A stretch of 58,986 bases of DNA from Terriglobia bacterium (GTDB lineage Bacteria; Acidobacteriota; Terriglobia; Terriglobales; SCQP01). Location: the NCBI GenBank assembly GCA_021323595.1, contig JAJPKR010000058.1:1-58986 (forward strand), in the 5' to 3' direction. The position numbers and the translations under genes were made by a program. Below are positions 1-24,348 of this stretch, piece by piece (the stretch's first letter is position 1; each line of letters starts with the position of its first letter). Under the pieces are notes generated by a model. It was not told where the DNA came from and ran no database searches. It saw only the letters and a list, made by a program, of their open reading frames with translations.

Positions 1-209
1 GCACGCTGCGCGACATCTCGCACATGATCCGGCTGCGCGGCGCCGAAACCGTGATCGTCGGCATCCAGCCCGACGTCGCCTTCGCCCTGGTGCAACTGGG
101 CTTGAACCTGTCCGATGTCGCCACCGCGCTCGATTTGGAAGAGGGGCTTCGTTACTTGAACCAAAAAGTGAAGTCCTTGGGGGCGGAGAAGCCGCCGCAG
201 CGAGCGTGA
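1..209 (+). CDS. rsbS: RsbS-like STAS protein, C-terminal part (cut by window edge)
   Basis: The open frame is already running at base 3 and ends at the TGA at 207-209, so the N-terminal half is outside the window. The visible 68 residues end a STAS domain: a helix (TLRDISHMIRLRG), a beta strand (ETVIVGIQP), then the FALVQLGLNL and TALDLEEGLRYL helices typical of RsbS. In stressosomes RsbS is the scaffold protein phosphorylated on Ser by RsbT; that Ser would lie upstream and cannot be checked. The gene is followed after 7 nt by an RsbT-like kinase, which supports RsbS over other STAS proteins such as SpoIIAA. An RsbR-type sensor probably lies further left (inference). Confidence 0.8.
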   Translation, partial: TLRDISHMIRLRGAETVIVGIQPDVAFALVQLGLNLSDVATALDLEEGLRYLNQKVKSLGAEKPPQRA

Positions 210-216
210 ACCGGGG

Positions 217-684
217 ATGGGTATGAAATCGCTTCCTGATCCCTCTTCGAAGACCGGCGTGGGCACGGCCGGCGCCCAGGAAGAGATTGTCGTGTCGATC
301 CGTTCCGATTTGGATATCGTGGCCGCACGGCAACGCGGGCGCACGCTGGCCGAATCCCTGGGTTTCGGCCCGAGTGATTCGACCCTGGTGGCGACCGCGA
401 TTTCGGAAGTGGCGAGAAATATCTTGGTGTATGCCCAATGCGGAGAAGTTCGCCTGGCCCCCGTGGAAAACTCCGGCAAGCGCGGTTTGATGATCATCGC
501 CGCGGACCAGGGGCCAGGGATTGCCGATTTGCACTTAGCGCTCCAAGACGGCTATTCCACGTCACGGAGTTTGGGTCTGGGGCTGCCCGGCGTGCGCCGT
601 CTGATGGACGAGTTCGAGATTCAGTCCTCGGTAGGCGGGGGAACGCGGGTAGTCGTGAAGAAATGGCAGGCCAACAGCCGCTGA
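217..684 (+). CDS. rsbT: RsbT-like anti-sigma/switch serine kinase
   Basis: 155 aa, close to the usual RsbT length with a short N-terminal extension. It is a GHKL ATPase: the N-box is in SEVARNILVYA, the G1 box is ADQGPGI, and the G2 region is STSRSLGLGLPGVRRLMDEF. RsbT phosphorylates the stressosome proteins RsbS and RsbR; once released it binds the N-terminal domain of a partner, classically the phosphatase RsbU. No RsbU phosphatase is present here. The next gene is instead a histidine kinase with an RsbU_N-like N-terminus, so the partner may be that kinase (inference). The 3' end overlaps the longest plausible start of the kinase gene. Confidence 0.88.
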   Translation: MGMKSLPDPSSKTGVGTAGAQEEIVVSIRSDLDIVAARQRGRTLAESLGFGPSDSTLVATAISEVARNILVYAQCGEVRLAPVENSGKRGLMIIAADQGPGIADLHLALQDGYSTSRSLGLGLPGVRRLMDEFEIQSSVGGGTRVVVKKWQANSR

Positions 685-695
685 GTCGCGCCAGC

Positions 696-1745
696 ATGAG
701 CGCGAAGCCGACCCTGGTGCAGCCGGGGCGCGCGGCGGCGATTGGCAAGGCGACTGCAGGACCGAAGGGGCGGCACAAGGGAGGGATCGGCGGGGTGGCG
801 ACGCAGGCAAGTTCAGCGGATTGGAAGCAACGTTACGCGGCCGCCTTGGCCGCGTACCTGCGGGAAGGCAAGGAACTGCAGTTGCAGCGCGCTTACGAGT
901 TGGGCCGCGCCGCCTTGGGCGAAGGGCGCGGCGTAGTCGAGTTAGTGATGGAGCATCACCAGATCCTGCTACGCGACTGGACCCTGCGGCCCCCGGCCGA
1001 ACCGCGGCAGGCATTGCAGCGGGGCGGGGCCTTTCTACGCGAAGCCATATCTGCGTTCGAGATGACGCATCGAGGCTTCGGCGACGCCAGCGCCGCCCTG
1101 CGCCGGATGCACGAGTTCGTGGAAAAAGAGGCCAAGCGCATTGCCTATGCGCTCCATGACGGCGCCGCCCAGCTCCTCGCCGTTCTACACCTGAAACTGG
1201 AGGATTTGGCGCGCAGCCTGCCGCCTGCCGGGCGGTCTCGCGTGCGCGAAACCCGCCAGCTTCTCGATGAGATCGAAGGACAACTGCGGGCGCTCGCGCA
1301 CGAGATTCGTCCCGCCGCGCTCGACGATTTGGGGCTCACCGCGGCCTTGCAGACGCTGGTGGAATCGTTTACTCAGCGCACCGGCATTCCCGTGCATTGT
1401 GACTTTCGGCAGAGCCAACGCTGGCCGCCGGAAATCGAGACCACACTGTATCGCATCGTGCAGGAAGCGCTCAACAATGTCCGCAAGCATGCGCGCGCGC
1501 GTTCCGTAACTGTTGCCGTGACTGGCCAACCGGATGCTGTTTTTTGTGCGATCCAAGATGATGGCGTCGGCTGCGATCCCGCCCGCCTGTTCCAACCGGG
1601 CGGCGACGGATTGGGGCTGATCGGCATTCGCGAACGCGTGCAGGCGCTGGGCGGCAAGCTCGAGGTGCGCTCGGCGCATGGGCAAGGTACCGGTATTTTC
1701 GTTCGCATCAATCTGGAGGGCAGATCATGGCCGCTCAAATCTTGA
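696..1745 (+). CDS. Sensor histidine kinase with RsbU_N-like N-domain
   Basis: About 349 aa from ATG 696; an in-frame ATG at 663 would overlap rsbT and cannot be excluded. Residues ~30-125 resemble the RsbT-binding N-domain of RsbU (AYELGRAALGEGRGV, then a FEMTHRGFGDASAALRRMHEF-type helix). A HisKA_3 dimerisation helix follows, with the phosphoacceptor His154 in RIAYALHDGAAQLL. The HATPase domain has an N-box (VQEALNNVRKHA), DDGVG and GLGLIGIRERV. This is the DegS/NarX-type kinase layout. There are no membrane segments, so it should be cytosolic. The 3' end overlaps the response regulator start by 19 nt, so the two are almost certainly a pair. RsbT as the input partner is inference. Confidence 0.85.
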   Translation: MSAKPTLVQPGRAAAIGKATAGPKGRHKGGIGGVATQASSADWKQRYAAALAAYLREGKELQLQRAYELGRAALGEGRGVVELVMEHHQILLRDWTLRPPAEPRQALQRGGAFLREAISAFEMTHRGFGDASAALRRMHEFVEKEAKRIAYALHDGAAQLLAVLHLKLEDLARSLPPAGRSRVRETRQLLDEIEGQLRALAHEIRPAALDDLGLTAALQTLVESFTQRTGIPVHCDFRQSQRWPPEIETTLYRIVQEALNNVRKHARARSVTVAVTGQPDAVFCAIQDDGVGCDPARLFQPGGDGLGLIGIRERVQALGGKLEVRSAHGQGTGIFVRINLEGRSWPLKS

Positions 1746-2359
1746 TCGTCGATGATCATCACATTGTGCGCGATGGGCTGCGCCTGTTGCTGGAACGCGC
1801 TGGCTTCAAGGTCAGCGGCGAGGCCGCGGACGGATTGGCGGCGGCGCAGATGGCCGCGCAGATCAGACCCGACGTGGTGGTCATGGACATCGGCATACCG
1901 TTGCTCAACGGGCTGGATGCGGCGCGCAAGATTCTGAAGGACGTCCCCACCGCCAAAGTCATCTTCCTAAGCATGCATGCCGATAAGCAATACATCTTGG
2001 AGGCGCTGCGCATCGGGGCGAAGGGTTTCGTCACCAAGAGTCATGCCGCCGAGCACTTGGTGCAGGCGGTTCGCGACGCTCTGCGCGGCAAGACCTTTCT
2101 CAACGCCGAGACCTCGGAAGCCGTGGTCGCCGCTTATCAATCGGACGCGAATTTGCTCGATGATCCGCTCACGCCGCGCGAGCGGCAAGTGCTGCAATTG
2201 GTCGCAGAGGGCCGTACCACCAAGGAAGTCGCCGCGCTGTTGAATATCAGCGTCAAGACCGCCGAGACACACCGCTCGCGGACCATGGAAAAGCTCGATA
2301 TTCACGACACCGCCACTCTGGTTCGCTATGCCATTCGGCGTGGCCTAGTGCAGCCTTAG
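1727..2359 (+). CDS. NarL/FixJ-family response regulator
   Basis: 210 aa. The N-terminal receiver (1-125) has the acidic pair DD9-10, phosphoacceptor Asp54 (VVMDIGIP) and the conserved Lys in GFVTKS. The C-terminal LuxR-type helix-turn-helix (about 146-205) carries LTPREREV-like residues and the recognition helix SVKTAETHRSR. The start overlaps the 3' end of the histidine kinase gene, so the two are translationally coupled. It is expected to bind promoters when phosphorylated by that kinase. Its targets cannot be read from the sequence; the neighbouring polysaccharide locus is a reasonable candidate (inference). Confidence 0.93.
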   Translation: MAAQILIVDDHHIVRDGLRLLLERAGFKVSGEAADGLAAAQMAAQIRPDVVVMDIGIPLLNGLDAARKILKDVPTAKVIFLSMHADKQYILEALRIGAKGFVTKSHAAEHLVQAVRDALRGKTFLNAETSEAVVAAYQSDANLLDDPLTPRERQVLQLVAEGRTTKEVAALLNISVKTAETHRSRTMEKLDIHDTATLVRYAIRRGLVQP

Positions 2360-2638
2360 CTTCATCCCACACTGCAGTTCCGGCGCGCCGGCCAGTCCTT
2401 AAGCGCTCGGCGTGGCCGCCTGCGCGCGGTGACATGCGCCGCGCCGCCGATTGATGACGTCGCCCCCCAGTGTGTCCCTTCGTTCGAGGGGCCCTACACG
2501 GAGTATCCAGAAAAGAACCGACCCCTGTCATCCTAATCACGCCTGATTGTCGAGAGCTTCGGGCACGCCTAGCGTACAAGAGACCGGGCGAAGAGCGGCG
2601 GCCGGGTTCGCAACTGAAACGCAGGAGCAGGAGCGGCC
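2360..2638. other. Intergenic spacer between response regulator and pseudo-receiver
   Basis: 279 bp with no convincing ORF. I see no strong sigma-70 or -24/-12 element. A purine-rich stretch (GCAGGAGCAGGAG) at the 3' end is the ribosome binding site of the next gene. The promoter of the downstream regulators is probably here but cannot be placed. Confidence 0.5.
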
Positions 2639-3019
2639 TTGAGAGTTCTAATTGCAGACAGCGACGTCATGTTTCGGCACTACCTCTCGCGAATTCTCGA
2701 AAATCAGCCGGGCTGCCACGTCGTTGGCGAAACCGTCGACATGAAGCAAACCCTGGAAGAGTTCGCCAAAGTCAACCCCGATTTGGTGTGCGTGGGGATA
2801 TCGCTGCCGTATCACGGCGGACTTGAGGCGACGCGCCAGATCCGCCGTCTGCGCCCGTCAACGCGAGTGATCTTGTTCTCCGAAGCGGCCGGCGAGGCCT
2901 ATCAAGCGGCTGCAATTCACGCGGGCGCGGACTGTCTGTTGCTGAAGAACGCGGAAATCAGCGTCATCGTGCAGACGCTTCGGGGAATGATGCAGGCGGA
3001 TTCACAACGGAGCGCGTAG
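2639..3019 (+). CDS. Stand-alone receiver domain lacking the phosphoacceptor Asp
   Basis: 126 aa from a TTG start preceded by AGGAGCAGGAG. It is a CheY-like domain with the N-terminal acidic pocket (IADSD), a Ser at the switch position (ILFSE) and the conserved Lys103 (LLLKN). The residue aligning with the phosphorylated Asp is Gly53 (PDLVCVGISLP, where PDVVxMDxxLP is usual); the codon is GGG. The protein therefore cannot be phosphorylated in the usual way and is a pseudo-receiver. It has no output domain and sits 12 nt upstream of a sigma-54 activator that has no receiver, so it may act on that activator by protein contact (inference). Confidence 0.85.
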   Translation: MRVLIADSDVMFRHYLSRILENQPGCHVVGETVDMKQTLEEFAKVNPDLVCVGISLPYHGGLEATRQIRRLRPSTRVILFSEAAGEAYQAAAIHAGADCLLLKNAEISVIVQTLRGMMQADSQRSA

Positions 3020-3031
3020 AGGCACTTTGCA

Positions 3032-4135
3032 ATGTCCACTAATTCGACGGGCAAGTTTGACTTCGGCGGCACCAACGGTTTCAGCGCCCTCGTCTGCGAG
3101 GATTTAGGCGACGGCTACGCGTTCGCCGCGGGCAGCGCTGTGATGCGCCGCCTCGCGCGTCACGTGGAGCAGATTGCCGGCATCGAGGTGCCGGTACTGC
3201 TCTTGGGCGAGAGCGGGGTTGGCAAGGAAGTGGCAGCGCGACTGATCCACAAGCGGTCGCCGCGCTGTCATCGCCCCTTTTTCAAGGTCAATTGCGCGGC
3301 GCTGCCGGCGGATTTGCTGGAGAGCGAATTGTTTGGATTCGAGCAGGGCGCCTTCACCGGCGCAGTTCGCTCCAAACCGGGCAAATTCGAGCTGTGCAAC
3401 AAGGGGACGATTTTTCTCGACGAAATCGGCGAGATGCCGACTACCCTGCAAGCCAAGCTGCTGCAAGTGCTGGAGGATCAGCAGTTCTGCCGCTTGGGAG
3501 GCCGAGCGCTAATCCAGGTGGACGTGCGCATTATCGCCGCCACCAACGTCGAGATCGGCAAGGCCCTTGCCAACCGCCAGTTTCGCCAAGATCTGTATTA
3601 CCGGCTCAACGCCGTCACCTTGCAATTGCCGCCTTTGCGCGAGCGGCGCGAAGAAATCGTGCCGTTGCTGCATTACTTCATGGACAACTTGGCGGCGCGG
3701 CTGGGCCGCCCTCGCGTGGCATTCACGCGCGAGGTATTGGACGCCTGCCAGGCGTACAACTGGCCTGGCAACGTGCGCGAACTCCAAAACTTCGTTAAGC
3801 GCTGTCTGGTGTTGGGGAGCTGCGACGTCAATCTTGCGGAGTTGACCGATGGACACGGCCCTGCGGTCGGCAACGTCATCGAGTTTCCTGGCGGGCCGCT
3901 GGGCGCTGACTTGAAGACGATGGTGCGCGAACTCAAGGCGCGGGCGGAGCTGAAAGCCATCCAGCAAGCCTTGGCGCAGGAGCAATGGAACCGGCCGCGG
4001 GCGGCACGCGTGCTGGGGATTAGCACCAAGGCGTTGCTGCACAAGATGCGGCAGTACGGAATTGCCCCTGCGGTCGAGGCGGCGTCCGCAGTCGAAAAAC
4101 TGGCGCCGGGAACGATGGTTCCGTCCGAAACATGA
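3032..4135 (+). CDS. Sigma-54-dependent transcriptional activator without sensory domain (1)
   Basis: 367 aa. A central AAA+ domain carries Walker A GESGVGKE (59-66), the sigma-54 contact loop GAFTGA (106-111), Walker B FLDEIGE (about 128-134) and the R-finger region. A C-terminal Fis-type helix-turn-helix follows near residues 320-345 (WNRPRAARVLGISTKALLHKM). The N-terminus is only about 30 residues, with no receiver, PAS or GAF domain. Such activators remodel the sigma-54 holoenzyme at -24/-12 promoters. The pseudo-receiver gene lies 12 nt upstream. In known PEP-CTERM loci the activator is PrsR, which has its own receiver; this one differs. Targets inferred: the PEP-CTERM genes. Confidence 0.92.
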   Translation: MSTNSTGKFDFGGTNGFSALVCEDLGDGYAFAAGSAVMRRLARHVEQIAGIEVPVLLLGESGVGKEVAARLIHKRSPRCHRPFFKVNCAALPADLLESELFGFEQGAFTGAVRSKPGKFELCNKGTIFLDEIGEMPTTLQAKLLQVLEDQQFCRLGGRALIQVDVRIIAATNVEIGKALANRQFRQDLYYRLNAVTLQLPPLRERREEIVPLLHYFMDNLAARLGRPRVAFTREVLDACQAYNWPGNVRELQNFVKRCLVLGSCDVNLAELTDGHGPAVGNVIEFPGGPLGADLKTMVRELKARAELKAIQQALAQEQWNRPRAARVLGISTKALLHKMRQYGIAPAVEAASAVEKLAPGTMVPSET

Positions 4136-4216
4136 AGAGGTGTTGCGCATGACGCGCGAAACCGCCCCGGAGCGCCTCGAGTTCCCCCCAGGCCATGGGG
4201 TTGTGGCGGTCATGTT

Positions 4217-4232
4217 TGGTCGAGCGGATGCA
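4217..4232 (+). promoter_or_regulatory. Possible -24/-12 (sigma-54) element before second activator
   Basis: TTGG at 4216-4219 and TGCA at 4229-4232 give GG-N10-GC spacing, about 62 nt before ATG 4295. It matches about 8 of 13 informative consensus positions. In GC-rich DNA such matches arise by chance, so this is weak. Confidence 0.3.
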
Positions 4233-4294
4233 AGTTAAGGGCGAGAGAGGATGCCATTGCAATTCACATTTGCACGAAAGGGGTGCTGGGGCCA

Positions 4295-5317
4295 ATGAGT
4301 AAAAGCGCTGTGGCGATGAGCGGCGGATCGTTGCCGCCGACGGCACTGATCTTGGGCATCTCGCCCGCGATGGAGCGAGTGCGGAGTTGTGTTGAACGCG
4401 TGGCGGTGACGGACGTTCCAGTCTTGATCCAAGGGCCGAGCGGCTCGGGCAAGGAGGTGCTGGCGCGCTGGCTGCACGCGCACTCGCCGCGTGCGCAAGG
4501 CCCGTTTGTGAAGGTCCACTGTCCCGCAATTCCGGAAATGCTTCTGGAAAGCGAGCTCTTCGGTCACGAAGAAGGCGCGTTCACCGGCGCGGTGCGGGCC
4601 AAGCCGGGTCGGGTTGAAGAAGCCGAGGGGGGCACGCTGTTCCTGGATGAGATCGCGGAGATGAATTCCGCGCTTCAAGCCAAGCTGCTGCACCTCTTGC
4701 AAGACGGAGAAGTGAGCCGAGTCGGCGGCGGCGAGCCGCGCCCCATCAATGTCCGCGTGATGTGCGCCACCAATCACGATCTGGAGGAAGAAATGCGCGC
4801 CGGCCGCTTTCGCCCCGATCTTTTTTATCGCATTAACGTAATCGGCTTGGAGCTGCCGCCGCTGCGGCAGCGGCCCCAGGACGTGATGCTGCTCGCGGAA
4901 TATTTCGTGCAGTCCTACAGCCAGCGCTACGGGCGGCCGCTGGCGCCGCTCTCGCCCTCGACACTTGAATTGCTGCAAGCGTATCCGTGGCCGGGCAACG
5001 TTCGAGAACTGGAAAACCTCATGAATCGCTATGCGATCTTTGGCTCGGAGGCGGTCATTGTCAACGAACTGCTGGGAAAACCGGCGGCGGAAGCGGAAGG
5101 CGCGGTTTCGCTGCGCCGGGTCGCGCGCCAAGCCTCACTCGACGCCCAGCGCCAAGTGATTCTGCAGGTTTTGCACGCGCATCAGTGGAATCGCAAGCAG
5201 ACGGCGCGCGCGCTCAAAATCAGTTACCGCGCTCTCCTTTACAAATTGCGGGATACGGGTATTCCCACGCGCCGAACGGGGCGCACGAGCGCCCGGGCCG
5301 TGCCGCCGATCCAGTGA
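4295..5317 (+). CDS. Sigma-54-dependent transcriptional activator without sensory domain (2)
   Basis: 340 aa from ATG 4295; an in-frame GTG at 4283 would add four residues. The AAA+ domain has Walker A GPSGSGKE, the contact loop GAFTGA, Walker B FLDEIAE and the [10 protein letters not shown] motif. The C-terminal Fis-type HTH includes [21 protein letters not shown]. Again there is no receiver or other sensory domain. It is clearly related to the activator at 3032-4135, so the pair probably arose by duplication. It lies immediately upstream of the polysaccharide operon, with 5 nt between its stop and the next start, and is probably co-transcribed with it. Confidence 0.92.
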
Positions 5318-5322
5318 GGCGA

Positions 5323-6123
5323 ATGGCGATGCGCTCCCGATCCCTGCTCGCCTTGGCCGCTCAAGGGCTGCTCCTGACGGCGGTCGCTCTGGCGCTGGCT
5401 TGGGCCTGGCAAGCCTCCGGCCAAGAGCCGGCGCCGGCGCCGGCGAAGCCGCCCGCCGCGGCTTCCGGCAGCCCGCATCGCCGCTGGGCCCCCTGGCACA
5501 TCTTCGGCCACGGCGCCGCCCCCGATCCCTCCACGGCTGATTCGACGCAGCCGAAAGCCGTCGCCGCCGCGGCTGTGCCCACACCGGCCGTGACGGTTGC
5601 GCCTGGCCGCAATGCGCCGGTCGCAGTCGCGCGGGCGCATGAGTACCACATGGGAGTAGGCGACTTGGTGGACGTTCAGGTCTGGCACGAGCCGGAGATT
5701 TCCGGCAAGGCGCCGATTCGTCCGGACGGCAAGATCGCCGTACCGCTGGCCGGCGAAATGCAAGCCGCCGGCCTCACGCCGCGGCAACTGCAAGCGGAGA
5801 TCATCGCCCGCCTGCGCGCCTATATCAGCGCGCCGGCGGTGACCGTCATCGTGGAGCAAGTCAACAGCCGCAAGTTCAACGTTCTGGGCCGCGTAATCCG
5901 CCCCGGCACGTACGCTTTGGTTTCGAACACCCGCGTTTTGGACGCGCTCTCGCTCGCAGGCGGACTCGCGCTCTTCGCGCACCCTTCGCACATTTACGTG
6001 CTGCGCGCGAATGCCGCGGGCCAGGTGCAAAAGCTCAAGTTCAACTACAAGAAAGTCATTCGCGGCCAGGACGAGGCGGAAGACATTCTGCTTCAGCCGG
6101 GCGACACGGTCGTGGTGCCGTGA
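5323..6123 (+). CDS. Polysaccharide export outer-membrane protein (Wza/EpsA-like)
   Basis: 266 aa from ATG 5323; ATG 5329 has better ribosome-site spacing (GAGG 9 nt upstream) and is a fair alternative. An N-terminal hydrophobic segment (LLALAAQGLLLTAVALALAWAW) is a signal sequence or anchor, followed by an Ala/Pro-rich linker. Then comes a polysaccharide-export domain (YHMGVGDLVDVQVWHEPEISG, IRPDGKIAVPLAGEM) and a SLBB domain (FNVLGRVIRPGTYAL, LSLAGGLA, LQPGDTVVVP). The family forms or feeds the outer-membrane export channel. There is no lipobox, unlike Wza. Its stop overlaps the next start (TGATG). Confidence 0.9.
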   Translation: MAMRSRSLLALAAQGLLLTAVALALAWAWQASGQEPAPAPAKPPAAASGSPHRRWAPWHIFGHGAAPDPSTADSTQPKAVAAAAVPTPAVTVAPGRNAPVAVARAHEYHMGVGDLVDVQVWHEPEISGKAPIRPDGKIAVPLAGEMQAAGLTPRQLQAEIIARLRAYISAPAVTVIVEQVNSRKFNVLGRVIRPGTYALVSNTRVLDALSLAGGLALFAHPSHIYVLRANAAGQVQKLKFNYKKVIRGQDEAEDILLQPGDTVVVP

Positions 6124-7688
6124 TGGCAGAGGGAAGCAAAGTGCAAGGAAGTCTAGCAGGATCGGGGAAGCGATGGACGGTGCGCGAAGTTCGGCGCCTG
6201 CTGGCGCGTTCGCGCTGGTGGCTGCTCGGGCCCTTTTTCTTTTTCGGCCTTGCCGGATTTATCGTGCAATGGGTGTGGCCGCCCCGCTATCGTTCGCAAG
6301 CGCTGATCTTGGTGCGCGAGCAGGTCGTGGCTCCGAAATTAGTCGCGCCCAACGTGCAAATCACCGCCGCGGATCGCCTGCAAGCGATGACCCAGCAAAT
6401 CTTGAGCCGCAGCCGCCTGCAGAACCTGATTGAGGAAGACGGCTTGTATCCCGGCGCGCGCCAGCGCTTGGACATGGACGGTCTGGTGAAGCGCATGCGC
6501 AAGGATATCGACATCGAGCCGGTGGTCTCGGCCGATCGCCCCGGAGATCTCACCGCCTTCCGGGTTTCGTACCTGGCGCCCACCGCGCGGCTGGCGCAAC
6601 GCGTGGTCAGCGAACTGACCGAGCTCTTCATTCAAGACAATTTGCAGGCGCGCGCGGCCGAATCGGCGGGCGCCACGGACTTTCTCCAGGCGCAATTGGA
6701 TCAGGCGCGGCAGAACCTGCAGCAGCAACAAGCAGCGCTGGCGGCGTTCAAGCGGCGCTACTTGGGCGAATTGCCGGAGCAAGAGCAGACCAACCTCGCG
6801 ATTCTCAACAGCCTGCGCGCTCAGTACAGCGCTGGTGCCGCGGAGTTGGATCGCGCCGAGCAGCAAGAGGCTTATTGGCAATCGCTGGTGGCCGCCTATG
6901 CGCACGGTGGGACGCCGGCGGCGGAGGCGGCCAACTCCCCCCAAGCGCATATCCGGGCGCTGCAGGCGCAATTGGCGGCCTTGGAGGCCGATCATACCGA
7001 CCTGTATCCGGATGTCATTGCGGCGCGGCGTGAACTGAAGCGCTGGCAGGCGATCGCGGCCGCGGCGCCCCAGGGCGCCGCCCACGGTTCCACCAGTGGC
7101 GAGGGGCCGGCGCAGCTCGAAGCGGCGAGCCGGCTGCGCGCCGTGCGGCTTGGCGTGCAGCGCCGCCGTGCCGCGCAAGCGGCGCTGGCCCAGCGCATCC
7201 ATGCGGTGCAGGCCGAACTCGCCGACACCCCCCTGCGCGCCCAGCAGATCGCCGTTCTCCAAGATGAAGTGACGAACGCCCAGCAGGCTTACGACAGCCT
7301 CCTTGCCAAGGTTGCGCAGTCGCGCCTGGCGACCGATTTGGAACAAAGCCAGCAAGGCGAACGCTTCCAAGTGATCGACCCCGCCAATTTGCCGGTCCGT
7401 CCGGCGCAACCGAATCGCGCGCTGATCCTGGCGGCAGGTTGGCTCCTGGGCCTCCTCGCCGGCGCCGGCGCCTTGGCGCTGCGGCAAATGAGCGATCAGA
7501 CTTTGCACGGCGAAACCGCATTGAGCTTGGCAACGAACATGCCGGTTTTGGCCTTGATCGGCACCATGACCTCTCCTCGGCGGCGGCGGCTGGCCGCGCT
7601 GCGCCGTGTGGCCGAGGTGGCGGTGGTAGCCGTCTTGGTGGTGCTGGCAGCCGGTTCCGTGGCGTACACGGCGTTTTTCATGAGCTGA
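6123..7688 (+). CDS. Polysaccharide copolymerase / chain-length determinant (Wzz type, XrtA-system-like)
   Basis: 521 aa. The Wzz domain begins with a membrane segment at about 32-52 (WWLLGPFFFFGLAGF). A long periplasmic region rich in Gln/Ala coiled coil spans about 170-410. The Pro-rich VRPAQPNRALIL motif leads into a second membrane segment at about 430-450. A further C-terminal hydrophobic helix at about 497-518 follows the arginine-rich stretch SPRRRRLAALRR. The extra C-terminal helix is as I recall it for XrtA-linked chain-length proteins rather than classical Wzz. The kinase partner is encoded separately two genes downstream. The role is to set polymer length and couple to export. Confidence 0.9.
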   Translation: MAEGSKVQGSLAGSGKRWTVREVRRLLARSRWWLLGPFFFFGLAGFIVQWVWPPRYRSQALILVREQVVAPKLVAPNVQITAADRLQAMTQQILSRSRLQNLIEEDGLYPGARQRLDMDGLVKRMRKDIDIEPVVSADRPGDLTAFRVSYLAPTARLAQRVVSELTELFIQDNLQARAAESAGATDFLQAQLDQARQNLQQQQAALAAFKRRYLGELPEQEQTNLAILNSLRAQYSAGAAELDRAEQQEAYWQSLVAAYAHGGTPAAEAANSPQAHIRALQAQLAALEADHTDLYPDVIAARRELKRWQAIAAAAPQGAAHGSTSGEGPAQLEAASRLRAVRLGVQRRRAAQAALAQRIHAVQAELADTPLRAQQIAVLQDEVTNAQQAYDSLLAKVAQSRLATDLEQSQQGERFQVIDPANLPVRPAQPNRALILAAGWLLGLLAGAGALALRQMSDQTLHGETALSLATNMPVLALIGTMTSPRRRRLAALRRVAEVAVVAVLVVLAAGSVAYTAFFMS

Positions 7689-7690
7689 CT

Positions 7691-8587
7691 ATGTTTGAAG
7701 CCTTTTTCCATCTTCGCTGTGATCCTTTTGCCGTTAGCCCGGATCCGCAGTTCCTCTATCCGACTCGGGCGCATACGGAAGCGGTCGCAGGATTGTTCTA
7801 TGGCTTGCAAGCGCAAAAAGGAGTCATGGCGCTGAGCGGAGAAGTCGGCACAGGCAAGACGCTGGTGTTGCGCTGCCTGATGCGCTCCCTGGATCCGGAA
7901 CGCGTCGTCTGCGCCTATGTTTTCCACACCCTGCTGGCGGGCGAAGAGTTACTCCGCTACATCATGGCGGCCTTGGGCGTGGAAACGCCCGCCCAAGGCA
8001 AGGCGGAGATGTTGCTGCAGTTGGGAGCGCATCTCGCGCGCCAGCACCAGCGCGGCGTGACGTCGGCACTGATTCTCGACGAGGCGCAGAACTTGAGTTT
8101 CGAGAGCCTTGAGGAGATTCGGCTACTGACCAATCTCGAGACCGCTGATACCAAGCTCTTGCAAGTCATCCTCGCCGGCCAGCCGGAGCTCGATGAGAAG
8201 CTGCAATCGTTCCCGCTGCGGCAACTGCGCCAGCGCATCACCTTGCGCTTTCATTTGCCGCCGCTCGGCGAGACCGAAACCGAGGCGTACATCGAGCGGC
8301 GCATGCGCTTGGCGGGGGGCGAGGGCCGGGAAGCTTTTTCACCGGGTGCGCGCGAACGAATCTACGAATACTCGCGCGGCGTGCCGCGCCTTATCAACGT
8401 GCTCTGCGGCGCGGCTTTGCTCGCCGCTTACGGCCTGGGGACGCCGAAGGTCAGCGCGGCTCTGCTGGACGAGGTGGCTGCCGATCTGGGCCTGACGGTG
8501 AATTCCACGCGCAATGCCCGGCCCGTTCCGGAACCCGCCGCCCAAGTTGCGGCCCCGCGCGCCGTTCGGCAGGAGGTGGCACTATGA
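7691..8587 (+). CDS. ExeA/GspA-like AAA ATPase of XrtA exopolysaccharide locus
   Basis: 298 aa. The family N-terminus is present (FHLRCDPFAVSPDPQFLYPTR). Walker A is GEVGTGKT (50-57), Walker B LILDEAQ (127-133), and the arginine-containing sensor is in RGVPRLINVLC. Homologues in secretion systems (ExeA) couple ATP hydrolysis to envelope assembly. In exosortase/EPS loci a paralogous family sits beside the chain-length protein and the tyrosine kinase, exactly as here. It starts 2 nt after the copolymerase stop and overlaps the next gene by 4 nt. Its precise role in EPS export is unknown. Confidence 0.9.
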   Translation: MFEAFFHLRCDPFAVSPDPQFLYPTRAHTEAVAGLFYGLQAQKGVMALSGEVGTGKTLVLRCLMRSLDPERVVCAYVFHTLLAGEELLRYIMAALGVETPAQGKAEMLLQLGAHLARQHQRGVTSALILDEAQNLSFESLEEIRLLTNLETADTKLLQVILAGQPELDEKLQSFPLRQLRQRITLRFHLPPLGETETEAYIERRMRLAGGEGREAFSPGARERIYEYSRGVPRLINVLCGAALLAAYGLGTPKVSAALLDEVAADLGLTVNSTRNARPVPEPAAQVAAPRAVRQEVAL

Positions 8588-9447
8588 GCCGCATCTTGGA
8601 GGCATTGCGGCGAGCCGAGCAGGAGCATGGCGCTCCGGCCGCGCCGCCGACCGCCGAAGACGACCTGGCAGCGCTGCCGGAGTTGCTGCGCGCCCTGCAA
8701 CCGAGGGCGGCTGCGCCGGACCGTTTTGCGGCTTGCCATTATCGCCCCAGTCTTGAGCACCTGCTGGCTACCGATGGCCATGACCGCACCGCGCAAGCCG
8801 AGAGCTTTCGCGTGCTGCGTTTCCGGCTGGAGGCGTGGCGCGGGCGGGAGCCACGCAAGATCGTGCTCATCGCCAGTTCCATACCCAAGGATGGCAAGAC
8901 GGTGGTGGCGGTCAATCTAGCGCGAACCCTCGCGCTCACCGGGGCGCGCGTGCTGTTGATTGACGCTGACTTGCGCAAGGGTGGCATCCATGACCTGCTG
9001 GAGTTAAAACCCGACTCGGGGCTGGCGGAAGTGCTGCAGGGCAATGAGCGCTGGCAAGGTGTCTGCCGGGAGGTGGCGCCGCTGGGTTTTTGCTATTTGG
9101 CTGCGGGACGCCTGCCCGCGAATCCCGCGGAACTGCTGCGGAGCCAGCGCTTGCGTCAGACGCTCCAGGAAGCCACCACGATCTTTGACTGGATCGTCGT
9201 GGACTCGCCACCGCTGGTTCCGTTCGCCGATGCCCGCTACTTGGCCGCGCTGGCGCACGGCGTCGTACTCGTCGCCCGGGATGGGTGGACCCCGCTGCCC
9301 GAGTTGACCAAGAGCCTGCAGGCCCTGGCGTCGTACCCACTCGTGGGTCTGGTCATGAACGACAGCGACGAAGAGCCGTCCTCCGGGTACTATGCGCGCT
9401 ACCCATTGATGGCGGCGGTGCCGATGGAGGAAAGCGCGCGTGCGTAG
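8584..9447 (+). CDS. CpsD/CapB-like bacterial tyrosine kinase
   Basis: 287 aa. The N-terminus MSRILEALRRAEQE is typical of XrtA-associated kinases. The Walker A variant SSIPKDGKT (98-106) replaces the usual S-x-PGEGKS/T; the Lys and Thr needed for ATP are kept. Walker A' is LLIDADLRKG (124-133) and the Walker B-like strand is WIVVDSPP. A small tyrosine cluster (YYARY, near 269-273) lies close to the C-terminus and is the probable autophosphorylation site. The partner is the membrane copolymerase two genes upstream. Phosphorylation cycling controls polymer synthesis in related systems. The stop overlaps the next gene start by 8 nt. Confidence 0.88.
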   Translation: MSRILEALRRAEQEHGAPAAPPTAEDDLAALPELLRALQPRAAAPDRFAACHYRPSLEHLLATDGHDRTAQAESFRVLRFRLEAWRGREPRKIVLIASSIPKDGKTVVAVNLARTLALTGARVLLIDADLRKGGIHDLLELKPDSGLAEVLQGNERWQGVCREVAPLGFCYLAAGRLPANPAELLRSQRLRQTLQEATTIFDWIVVDSPPLVPFADARYLAALAHGVVLVARDGWTPLPELTKSLQALASYPLVGLVMNDSDEEPSSGYYARYPLMAAVPMEESARA

Positions 9448-22466: not shown

Positions 22467-23473
22467 GTGCCCAGATGCAGCCGCAGGCGCTGGCGGCAAC
22501 GTCTCGGCTGCCGCTTAGTCAGGAGTCCGCCCGCACCGTTGACAGCGTTCGCGCCGCGGTCAGCATCTCGGTCATCATCCCGACCAAAGATCGGCCTGGC
22601 GAGCTCCTCGAAACGGTGGCGAGCCTGCTGGCGCAAACCGTTTCTCCCCTCGAGATTCTCATCGTCGATCAAAGCCAAGGCGAGGACTCCTGGCGCGCCG
22701 TTTCCGAGGGGTGGCCGAGCGCTACTTCGGTGCGGTTGCGGTATTTTCGCGAGCCGGCAATTCCCGGGGCCACGGCGGCGCGGAATTACGCCATGGACCG
22801 TGCTGAAGGCGAGATCTGGCTTTTCTTGGACGATGACGTGATCCTCGAGCCCGACTTTATCGCCGCCTTGCTTTGCGTTTACCGCGACTATCCCCGCGCT
22901 GATGGAGTCTCGGGAGTCATCACCAACTATCGTCCTCCCTCCTGGCGCTTTCGCCTCTGGCGGCGAATTTTCGAACGCGGACTTTTTCGCGACGACCGGC
23001 AGCCGATCTATTGGCGTGCTGACGCGCTTCGCCATTCCCCGCCGCTGCCGGTGACGCGCTTCGGCAGCGGCCTGATGAGCTTCCGCGCGGCGCGGGTCGC
23101 CCATCATCGCTTCGATCCGTGTTTGCCGGGAGTGCCGCGCGGCGAGGACGTGGATTTTTGTCTGGGGCTGGGCACCGGCGCGCGCCTGCTGATCGCACCC
23201 GGAGCGCGGCTGGCGCACAAGGGCGGGAACGTGGCGCGGATTCCCGCCGCTTGGCTCACGGCGGAAATGCGTGGCGCCCGCTACCTGTACGGTCGGCATC
23301 GGTGTCGCCACCGCGCGGCCGCGCTCGCCCTAGCCTGGCTGTTCATTGGCTACGCGCTTCTGGCCGTGGCGGAGTGCGGGCGCGCGCGTTCGTTCGTCGG
23401 CCTGCGTGCCTACATCGCCGGGTGGCGCGGCCCCGGCCCCGCCGGCCCGGTGGGGAGGCGCCTCGCATTATGA
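22463..23473 (+). CDS. Glycosyltransferase family 2
   Basis: 336 aa from ATG 22463 (ATGA overlap with the flippase stop). GT-A domain: SVIIPTKDRPGELLETVASL, LIVDQSQGED, ARNYAMDRAEGEIWLFLDDD with a DDD metal site, and GEDVDFCLGLG as the catalytic-base region. One hydrophobic segment near the C-terminus (AAALALAWLFIGYALLAVA) may anchor it to the membrane. It probably adds a sugar to the repeat unit. Its stop overlaps the exosortase start by 4 nt. Confidence 0.9.
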   Translation: MSAQMQPQALAATSRLPLSQESARTVDSVRAAVSISVIIPTKDRPGELLETVASLLAQTVSPLEILIVDQSQGEDSWRAVSEGWPSATSVRLRYFREPAIPGATAARNYAMDRAEGEIWLFLDDDVILEPDFIAALLCVYRDYPRADGVSGVITNYRPPSWRFRLWRRIFERGLFRDDRQPIYWRADALRHSPPLPVTRFGSGLMSFRAARVAHHRFDPCLPGVPRGEDVDFCLGLGTGARLLIAPGARLAHKGGNVARIPAAWLTAEMRGARYLYGRHRCRHRAAALALAWLFIGYALLAVAECGRARSFVGLRAYIAGWRGPGPAGPVGRRLAL

Positions 23474-24348
23474 GTGTTCTCGATCAAATCGTTGCGCCGC
23501 CGGTTCCGGCGCGCCGCCGGCTGCTGTGGCCTTGGCTTCTCCTCGGCGGGCTGGTCTGCGCGCTCTATGCGCCCGTCTTGACTCGCTTGGTCAATCAATG
23601 GTGGACCGATCCGAACTATGGCCACGGTTTCTTGGTGCCGTTACTGTCGGGCTTCGTCGTTTGGCGGACCCGCTCCGAATGGGAGCGCCTGCCTTTGCGG
23701 CCGCGTTGGAGCGGCGCGATGCTCATGCTCGCCGCTCTGGCGTTGCTTGCTGCCGGGACCTTGGCCGCCGAGCTGTTCTTGAGCCGGGTCTCGTTGCTGG
23801 TCTTGCTGGCGGGAATGGTGGTTTTCTTTGCCGGCTGGCGCTTCCTGCGCGCCTGGAGCTTCCCCTTCGGTTTTCTGTTCTTCATGATTCCGTTGCCGGC
23901 GATCATTTATTACCAGATCACTTTTCCGCTGCAGTTGATCGCCTCTCGCGTGGCTGGACTGGGGTTGGACCTGCTCCAGGTTCCCGCCCTGCGCGAAGGC
24001 AATTTGATCGTTTTGCCCAATTACACGCTGGCGGTCGCCGAAGCTTGTAGCGGCATTCGCTCGCTTCTCTCGCTGCTGGCGCTCGCCGTCGCTTATGGCT
24101 ATTTGGCCGAATCGCGCGTGTGGAAGCGCATCGCCCTCGCGGTGGCAATGGTTCCGATCGCCATCTTCACCAACGCTCTCCGCATTGTGGGCACGGGTGT
24201 GATGACCTATGCCTTCGGACCGCGCTGGGCGGAAGGGTTCTTTCACGCCTTTTCCGGCTGGCTGATGTTCCTTGTCGCCTTCGCCCTCATGCTTGCCGTG
24301 CATCGCGTGCTGCGCTTCCGCCGGCGCCCGTGGGAGGGAACCGCATGA
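23470..24348 (+). CDS. Exosortase (XrtA/EpsH-like)
   Basis: 292 aa with about eight membrane helices. The family signatures are complete: the N-terminal DPNYGHGFLVPLLSGFVVW, the catalytic Cys193 in AEACSGIRSLL, Arg238 in FTNALRIVGTG and His259 in GFFHAFSGWLMF. Exosortases cleave the PEP-CTERM tail of exported proteins at the membrane and are thought to attach or release them with the co-produced polysaccharide. EpsI follows with a 4-nt overlap, and two PEP-CTERM substrates are encoded just downstream. Exact subtype (XrtA versus a related class) needs profile scoring. Confidence 0.95.
   Translation: MSVLDQIVAPPVPARRRLLWPWLLLGGLVCALYAPVLTRLVNQWWTDPNYGHGFLVPLLSGFVVWRTRSEWERLPLRPRWSGAMLMLAALALLAAGTLAAELFLSRVSLLVLLAGMVVFFAGWRFLRAWSFPFGFLFFMIPLPAIIYYQITFPLQLIASRVAGLGLDLLQVPALREGNLIVLPNYTLAVAEACSGIRSLLSLLALAVAYGYLAESRVWKRIALAVAMVPIAIFTNALRIVGTGVMTYAFGPRWAEGFFHAFSGWLMFLVAFALMLAVHRVLRFRRRPWEGTA

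Follow-up and report, generated by a model that had tools for sequence, protein, structure and literature searches.

The stretch of DNA analysed here (the window) is a complete contig (C57; 58,986 bases) from a draft genome of 3.55 Mb in 65 contigs. We consider it likely that its first genes make up the output side of a stressosome operon that targets a two-component system, with the switch kinase RsbT docking on a histidine kinase that carries an RsbU_N domain and with RsbX supplied in trans.

A partial rsbS, rsbT, a histidine kinase gene and a NarL-type response regulator gene all run in one direction in the window. Pfam analysis of bases 3-2359 located the RsbS-RsbT pair, the RsbU_N-like kinase and the overlapping regulator where the initial annotation had placed them. 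Because the contig begins inside rsbS, only the C-terminal part of RsbS is present (bases 3-209, + strand; STAS domain PF01740, E = 3.8e-4; 88 bits against an RsbS profile). The region of its phospho-acceptor serine falls immediately before the contig begins: relatives read DSFACRTLRD and the window opens at TLRD. RsbT (bases 217-684, + strand; HATPase_c_2, E = 2.6e-10) is 51% identical to Bacillus subtilis RsbT, and its true start is possibly GTG 259. The kinase (bases 795-1745, + strand, in a frame open from ATG 696) is a cytoplasmic protein with the Pfam domain order RsbU_N-HisKA_3-HATPase_c. Its gene overlaps by 19 bases that of the regulator (bases 1727-2359, + strand), which has a REC-GerE architecture (Response_reg, E = 1.1e-28; GerE, E = 1.1e-18).

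A search of the draft genome recovered no recognisable 16S gene of its own. Of 41 relatives, 25 contain an exact match to GATCCTGGCTCAGAATC, which we take to be the Acidobacteria primer Acid31F, and seven of these 25 belong to the same family; the reversed control matched in none. The sequence is also given in one paper on soil Acidobacteria. On the strength of the matches in relatives, the phylum is probably Acidobacteriota.

The predicted RsbT docking site is the RsbU_N domain of the kinase (bases 828-1064, + strand; residues 45-123 in the numbering from ATG 696). It matches PF08673 with E = 9.6e-7 and 29.3 bits, above the curated Pfam cut-off of 25.5 bits, and scored 32.6 bits in the genome search. 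The suspected resemblance of this N terminus to that of RsbU is therefore a significant family match. The kinase is the sole RsbU_N protein of its genome and, among 14 control genomes, B. subtilis alone has a match. When a profile built from 31 kinase N-terminal domains was run against the PDB, the only significant matches were chains of the B. subtilis RsbU N-terminal domain (2j70, E = 1.8e-8; 2j6z, 4.1e-8; 1w53, 4.1e-7; 2j6y, 4.2e-7), and the alignment includes the linker and reaches RsbU residue 101. A phmmer search of the PDB with a single N-terminal domain gave no matches. The AF2 model of the domain alone (pLDDT 92.5) has four helices; a KaiA C-domain and RsbU chains head its Foldseek matches, none of them significant, with RsbU at ranks 2-4 and an E of about 1. 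A search of genome contigs with the single kinase produced one Paenibacillus match, which covers only the low-complexity N terminus (residues 7-49) and was rejected as spurious, and a plasmid search returned nothing useful.

The remainder of the protein is a kinase core. A Pfam scan of the protein detected no PP2C/SpoIIE domain; in its place are a HisKA_3 dimerisation and phospho-acceptor domain with an LHDxxxQ motif (bases 1134-1322, + strand; PF07730, E = 2.3e-7) and a HATPase_c domain (E = 5.1e-14). The phospho-acceptor histidine (H154, 696 numbering) and Q159 are kept in 31 of 31 aligned members. The kinases that best match the catalytic core in structure are VraS (Z = 20.4) and DesK (Z of about 17), and RsbU chains are absent from the best 50 matches listed for the whole kinase because the kinase core fills them. 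In the model of the whole kinase, the fourth helix of the N-terminal bundle, the linker and the first DHp helix form a single unbroken helix (residues 103-174).

The reading frame proposed for the kinase held, but its proposed start at ATG 696 did not. GTG 795 is favoured by a GGGAGGG sequence just 5' of it, by the atypical codon-position GC of bases 696-794 (0.67 at the second position versus 0.47 downstream), by the predicted disorder of residues 1-37 (696 numbering) and by the length of the short-form kinases of relatives (about 300-325 residues), against 316 residues from GTG 795 and 349 from ATG 696. GTG 795 is thus the probable start of the kinase.

We extended the analysis to related genomes. 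RsbU_N occurs in 8 of the 60 nearest genomes (own included), in 56 of 399 genomes of the class, spread over 24 of 135 genera, and in 15 of 396 genomes drawn across the phylum. Forty-one further RsbU_N loci from the class were fetched and searched with family-built profiles. RsbT lies nearby in 40 (it was not found in the 11.7 kb contig of L076), and in 39 RsbX separates RsbT from the RsbU_N protein (RsbX was not found in L072), the usual order being R-S-T-X-kinase-regulator. The RsbU_N protein matches a HisKA_3-type kinase-core profile in 39 loci; in L070 it is by Pfam a HisKA hybrid kinase with a built-in receiver and in L017 it is cut by the contig end, so that every RsbU_N protein whose contig extends far enough is a histidine kinase. 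No RsbU-type PP2C phosphatase output was found among these 41 loci. A NarL-type regulator follows the kinase in most of them, none being found after it in L016 and L080. Elsewhere in the phylum, the ten RsbU_N candidates scanned, two of them borderline matches, are kinases save one (L093), which is cut short after PAS domains. Because B. subtilis is the sole match among the control genomes and about 40 loci share the gene order, the arrangement of RsbT and kinase is not due to chance. The proposal that RsbT is the input of the kinase accordingly gains support from the Pfam match, the family profile against the PDB and the conserved gene order, and contact between the two proteins is plausible from homology and linkage.

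Two further arrangements were seen among the relatives. Eight loci of one family (f7; L059, L063, L066, L071, L074, L078, L079 and L082) have a second, closely similar NarL-type regulator about 0.2-1.6 kb past the first. A same-family relative (L091; genome G003, contig C31, bases 47-6636) has a different stressosome, in which R-S-T is followed by a fusion of an RsbT-like ATPase to a SpoIIE phosphatase (335 residues) and then by a fusion of an RsbT-like ATPase to a HisKA-receiver hybrid kinase (696 residues); RsbU_N was not found in this locus.

The initial annotation had observed that rsbT is not followed by RsbU. This is correct, but the relatives show that the missing gene is RsbX and not a replaced RsbU. 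Neither RsbX nor a remnant of it is detectable between rsbT and the kinase (bases 685-795), and the window is a copy of the R-S-T-X-kinase-regulator operon minus RsbX. In the same genome, RsbX is encoded at bases 672-1256 of contig C42 (49% identical to the query, which came from a relative). This contig (L088, bases 1-1271) and the window open on the same base, and a near-identical repeat from the middle of rsbS is common to the two (bases 1-148 of the window; 147 of 148 bases identical, one mismatch), after which they diverge. C42 carries its own RsbT, 60% identical to that of the window, together with RsbX, and lacks an output gene. To judge from their translations, the convergent genes after RsbX are presumably recR, ybaB and dnaX. 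Contigs C5 and C48 each end in an N-terminal fragment of RsbR, and their last 106 bases are identical.

The rsbS repeat presumably broke the assembly at the start of the window. The simplest reading is that the genome has two stressosome loci, one with RsbT and RsbX and the other with RsbT, kinase and regulator, whose near-identical rsbR-rsbS genes were lost from the assembly. The near-identical start of rsbS suggests gene conversion or a recent duplication of rsbR-rsbS. Under the two-locus reading, cores of the same type would hold both RsbT proteins. Because the window lacks RsbX and the second locus of the same genome has it, RsbX probably acts in trans.

The mechanism that we propose would run as follows. 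In unstressed cells, the RsbR-RsbS core would hold RsbT. Upon stress, RsbT would phosphorylate RsbS and RsbR and be freed, as in B. subtilis, and, again by analogy with that organism, the freed RsbT would dock on the four-helix RsbU_N domain of the kinase dimer. Docking would alter the coiled-coil linker leading straight into the DHp helix and so reset the balance between kinase and phosphatase activities, changing how far the NarL-type regulator, the product of the adjacent gene, is phosphorylated. RsbX, in the role that it has in B. subtilis, would reset the core in trans from the second locus. Stress signals would thus probably reach a two-component gene switch and not a sigma factor.

Within this docking mechanism, the direction of control may be the reverse of simple activation. 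RsbT orders the linker of RsbU into a coiled coil (PMC12143880), and in the HisKA_3 kinase DesK a folded N-terminal coiled coil corresponds to the phosphatase state and a broken one to the phosphotransfer state (PMC5231405). Taken together, these observations mean that RsbT could turn the kinase off: by ordering the linker it would lock the HisKA_3 kinase as a phosphatase, and stress would switch the system off. This analogy draws on the closeness of the catalytic core to VraS and DesK, with the glutamine of HDxxxQ kept, and on the coiled-coil-governed switch of DesK. However, DesK is a membrane thermosensor, the kinases of the DesK/VraS type lack RsbU_N and have other inputs, and the comparison is one of kinase class. 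We therefore regard an off-switch as a serious but somewhat less favoured sub-case of RsbT docking.

It is also conceivable that the RsbU_N-like bundle is a dimerisation module only and that the two-component system is independent of RsbT. Many kinases dimerise through helical bundles, and several RsbT contact residues are unconserved: Y28, I74 and I78, hot spots for RsbT binding in B. subtilis RsbU, are replaced in the window kinase. The RsbT sequence of B. subtilis used as reference was checked only through the residue names in PMC12143880; that of RsbU was additionally checked against PDB chains. Other contact positions are kept across the family, with Glu or Asp at the position of RsbU Glu24 in 42 of 42 kinases, Arg or Lys at that of RsbT Arg23 in 40 of 41 proteins, and RsbT Arg19 retained. 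Arginine stands at the position of RsbU Arg91 in 35 of 42, but its pairing with RsbT Asp92 was discarded as a sign of contact, being confounded and without covariation. This residue was not counted because members with an intervening PAS domain also have the surrounding motif next to their DHp helix, and because kinases that lack RsbU_N can likewise contain LR. A role in dimerisation alone is made unlikely by the retention of RsbU_N together with RsbT in 40 of the 41 other loci, across many genera, and by the short-form kinase having no other sensor domain.

The remaining alternative, that RsbT uses its Ser/Thr kinase activity to phosphorylate the two-component system without docking, was proposed for Vibrio downstream kinases that lack RsbU_N (PMC9237108) and would suit the retention of the catalytic residues in the window RsbT, a GHKL kinase (equivalents of B. 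subtilis Asn49 of the N-box and Asp78 of the G1 box, which are present in 41 of 41 RsbT proteins; the equivalents of R19, R23 and D92 are kept as well). We give it least credence, because the window kinase has RsbU_N, a domain known to work by docking, and because a reference in PMC9237108 states in its title that the kinase activity of B. subtilis RsbT is dispensable for activating its phosphatase target. In the same Vibrio study, Heinz et al. saw no contact between RsbT and D1, and D1 there lacks RsbU_N (PMC9237108).

Downstream of the regulator lie a stand-alone receiver domain protein (bases 2639-3019, + strand; Response_reg, E = 3.1e-19), which has the same place in L012 and L013 and is a possible second phosphate acceptor, and two sigma-54 activators without receivers. 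The first (bases 3032-4135, + strand; Sigma54_activat, E = 1.3e-65) is kept beside the operon in relatives and scores 309.7 bits against NCBIfam PEP_resp_reg, under the cut-off of 502.6. The second (bases 4283-5317, + strand; E = 4.3e-66) is the first gene of an exopolysaccharide (EPS) cluster and has relatives in L012, L013, L014 and L018. The succession of a lone receiver and two receiver-less activators (bases 2639-5317) looks like a split PrsR-type regulator. The EPS cluster continues with export and chain-length genes of the XrtA/PEP-CTERM type (Wza-like, Wzc-like, AAA protein and tyrosine kinase; bases 5458-9447, + strand), extends beyond 20 kb and includes an EpsH-type exosortase (bases 23119-24348; PF09721, E = 2.8e-78).

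Six genera, belonging to three families, have EPS genes of the XrtA type close to an RsbU_N kinase gene. A Wza-like gene accompanies the locus in L012, L013, L014 and L018 of the same family and in L050, L051, L052, L070 and L076 of two others; none was found in the remaining loci examined, which is weak evidence because the flanks are unequal in length. The EPS cluster points away from rsbR in relatives of the same family, whereas in the window it runs in the same direction as the stressosome genes, and the adjacency of EPS genes and stressosome has thus survived rearrangement. A search of the own genome gave no match above cut-off to a canonical PrsK kinase, and a scan of the window for sigma-54 promoters gave no signal (33 matches against 29.7 expected). 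The connection to EPS that had been suggested thus amounts to adjacency that recurs in several genera, and control of EPS by the stressosome two-component system is a reasonable guess. A fuller scenario, which we consider unlikely, would have two loci with homogenised RsbR-RsbS cores and different RsbT paralogues share a single core and a single RsbX, with freed RsbT clamping the kinase as a phosphatase, such that the stressosome acts as an off-switch for a two-component system governing the XrtA-type EPS.

The idea that RsbT is wired to a kinase is not new, having been put forward for Proteobacteria in two studies. Heinz et al. (2022) reported RsbU_N in signalling proteins encoded after RSTX in certain Proteobacteria, as well as loci with kinase or receiver outputs (PMC9237108, Fig. 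3), and an eLife 2025 paper on RsbU described histidine kinases with RsbU N-terminal domains in rsbT operons and modelled the NreB-type protein MBI3545564.1 (PMC12143880, Fig. 5E). We found no biochemical test of this wiring. In the proteobacterial loci, too, stressosome genes neighbour that of a histidine kinase whose N terminus carries an RsbU_N domain, the proposed RsbT target. The window differs in being probably from Acidobacteriota, in having RsbX in a second locus and in its adjacent EPS cluster, and the RsbR proteins of its relatives are RsbRD_N-like (a weak match) and not globins. The B. subtilis RsbRST-RsbU sigma-B pathway shares RsbS, RsbT and the RsbU_N docking domain but ends in a PP2C phosphatase and an anti-sigma switch, whereas the window has a HisKA_3 kinase and a NarL regulator. 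RsbT control of another effector through RsbU_N is also seen in the Moorella thermoacetica stressosome, in which that effector is the diguanylate cyclase MtG (RsbU_N-GAF-GGDEF; PMC12143880).

What is new here is the prevalence of the arrangement in what is probably another phylum, with PP2C outputs absent among the loci seen, together with the split between two loci and the recurrent EPS neighbourhood. The loci also supply about 40 mostly short, soluble kinases on which the 'exchangeable toolkit' proposal from the eLife 2025 study could be tested, and they frame a clear either/or question, namely whether RsbT switches the kinase on or off. Thus, the wiring of RsbU_N to a kinase is the usual RsbU_N arrangement in a group that is probably Acidobacteriota, and not a proteobacterial curiosity.
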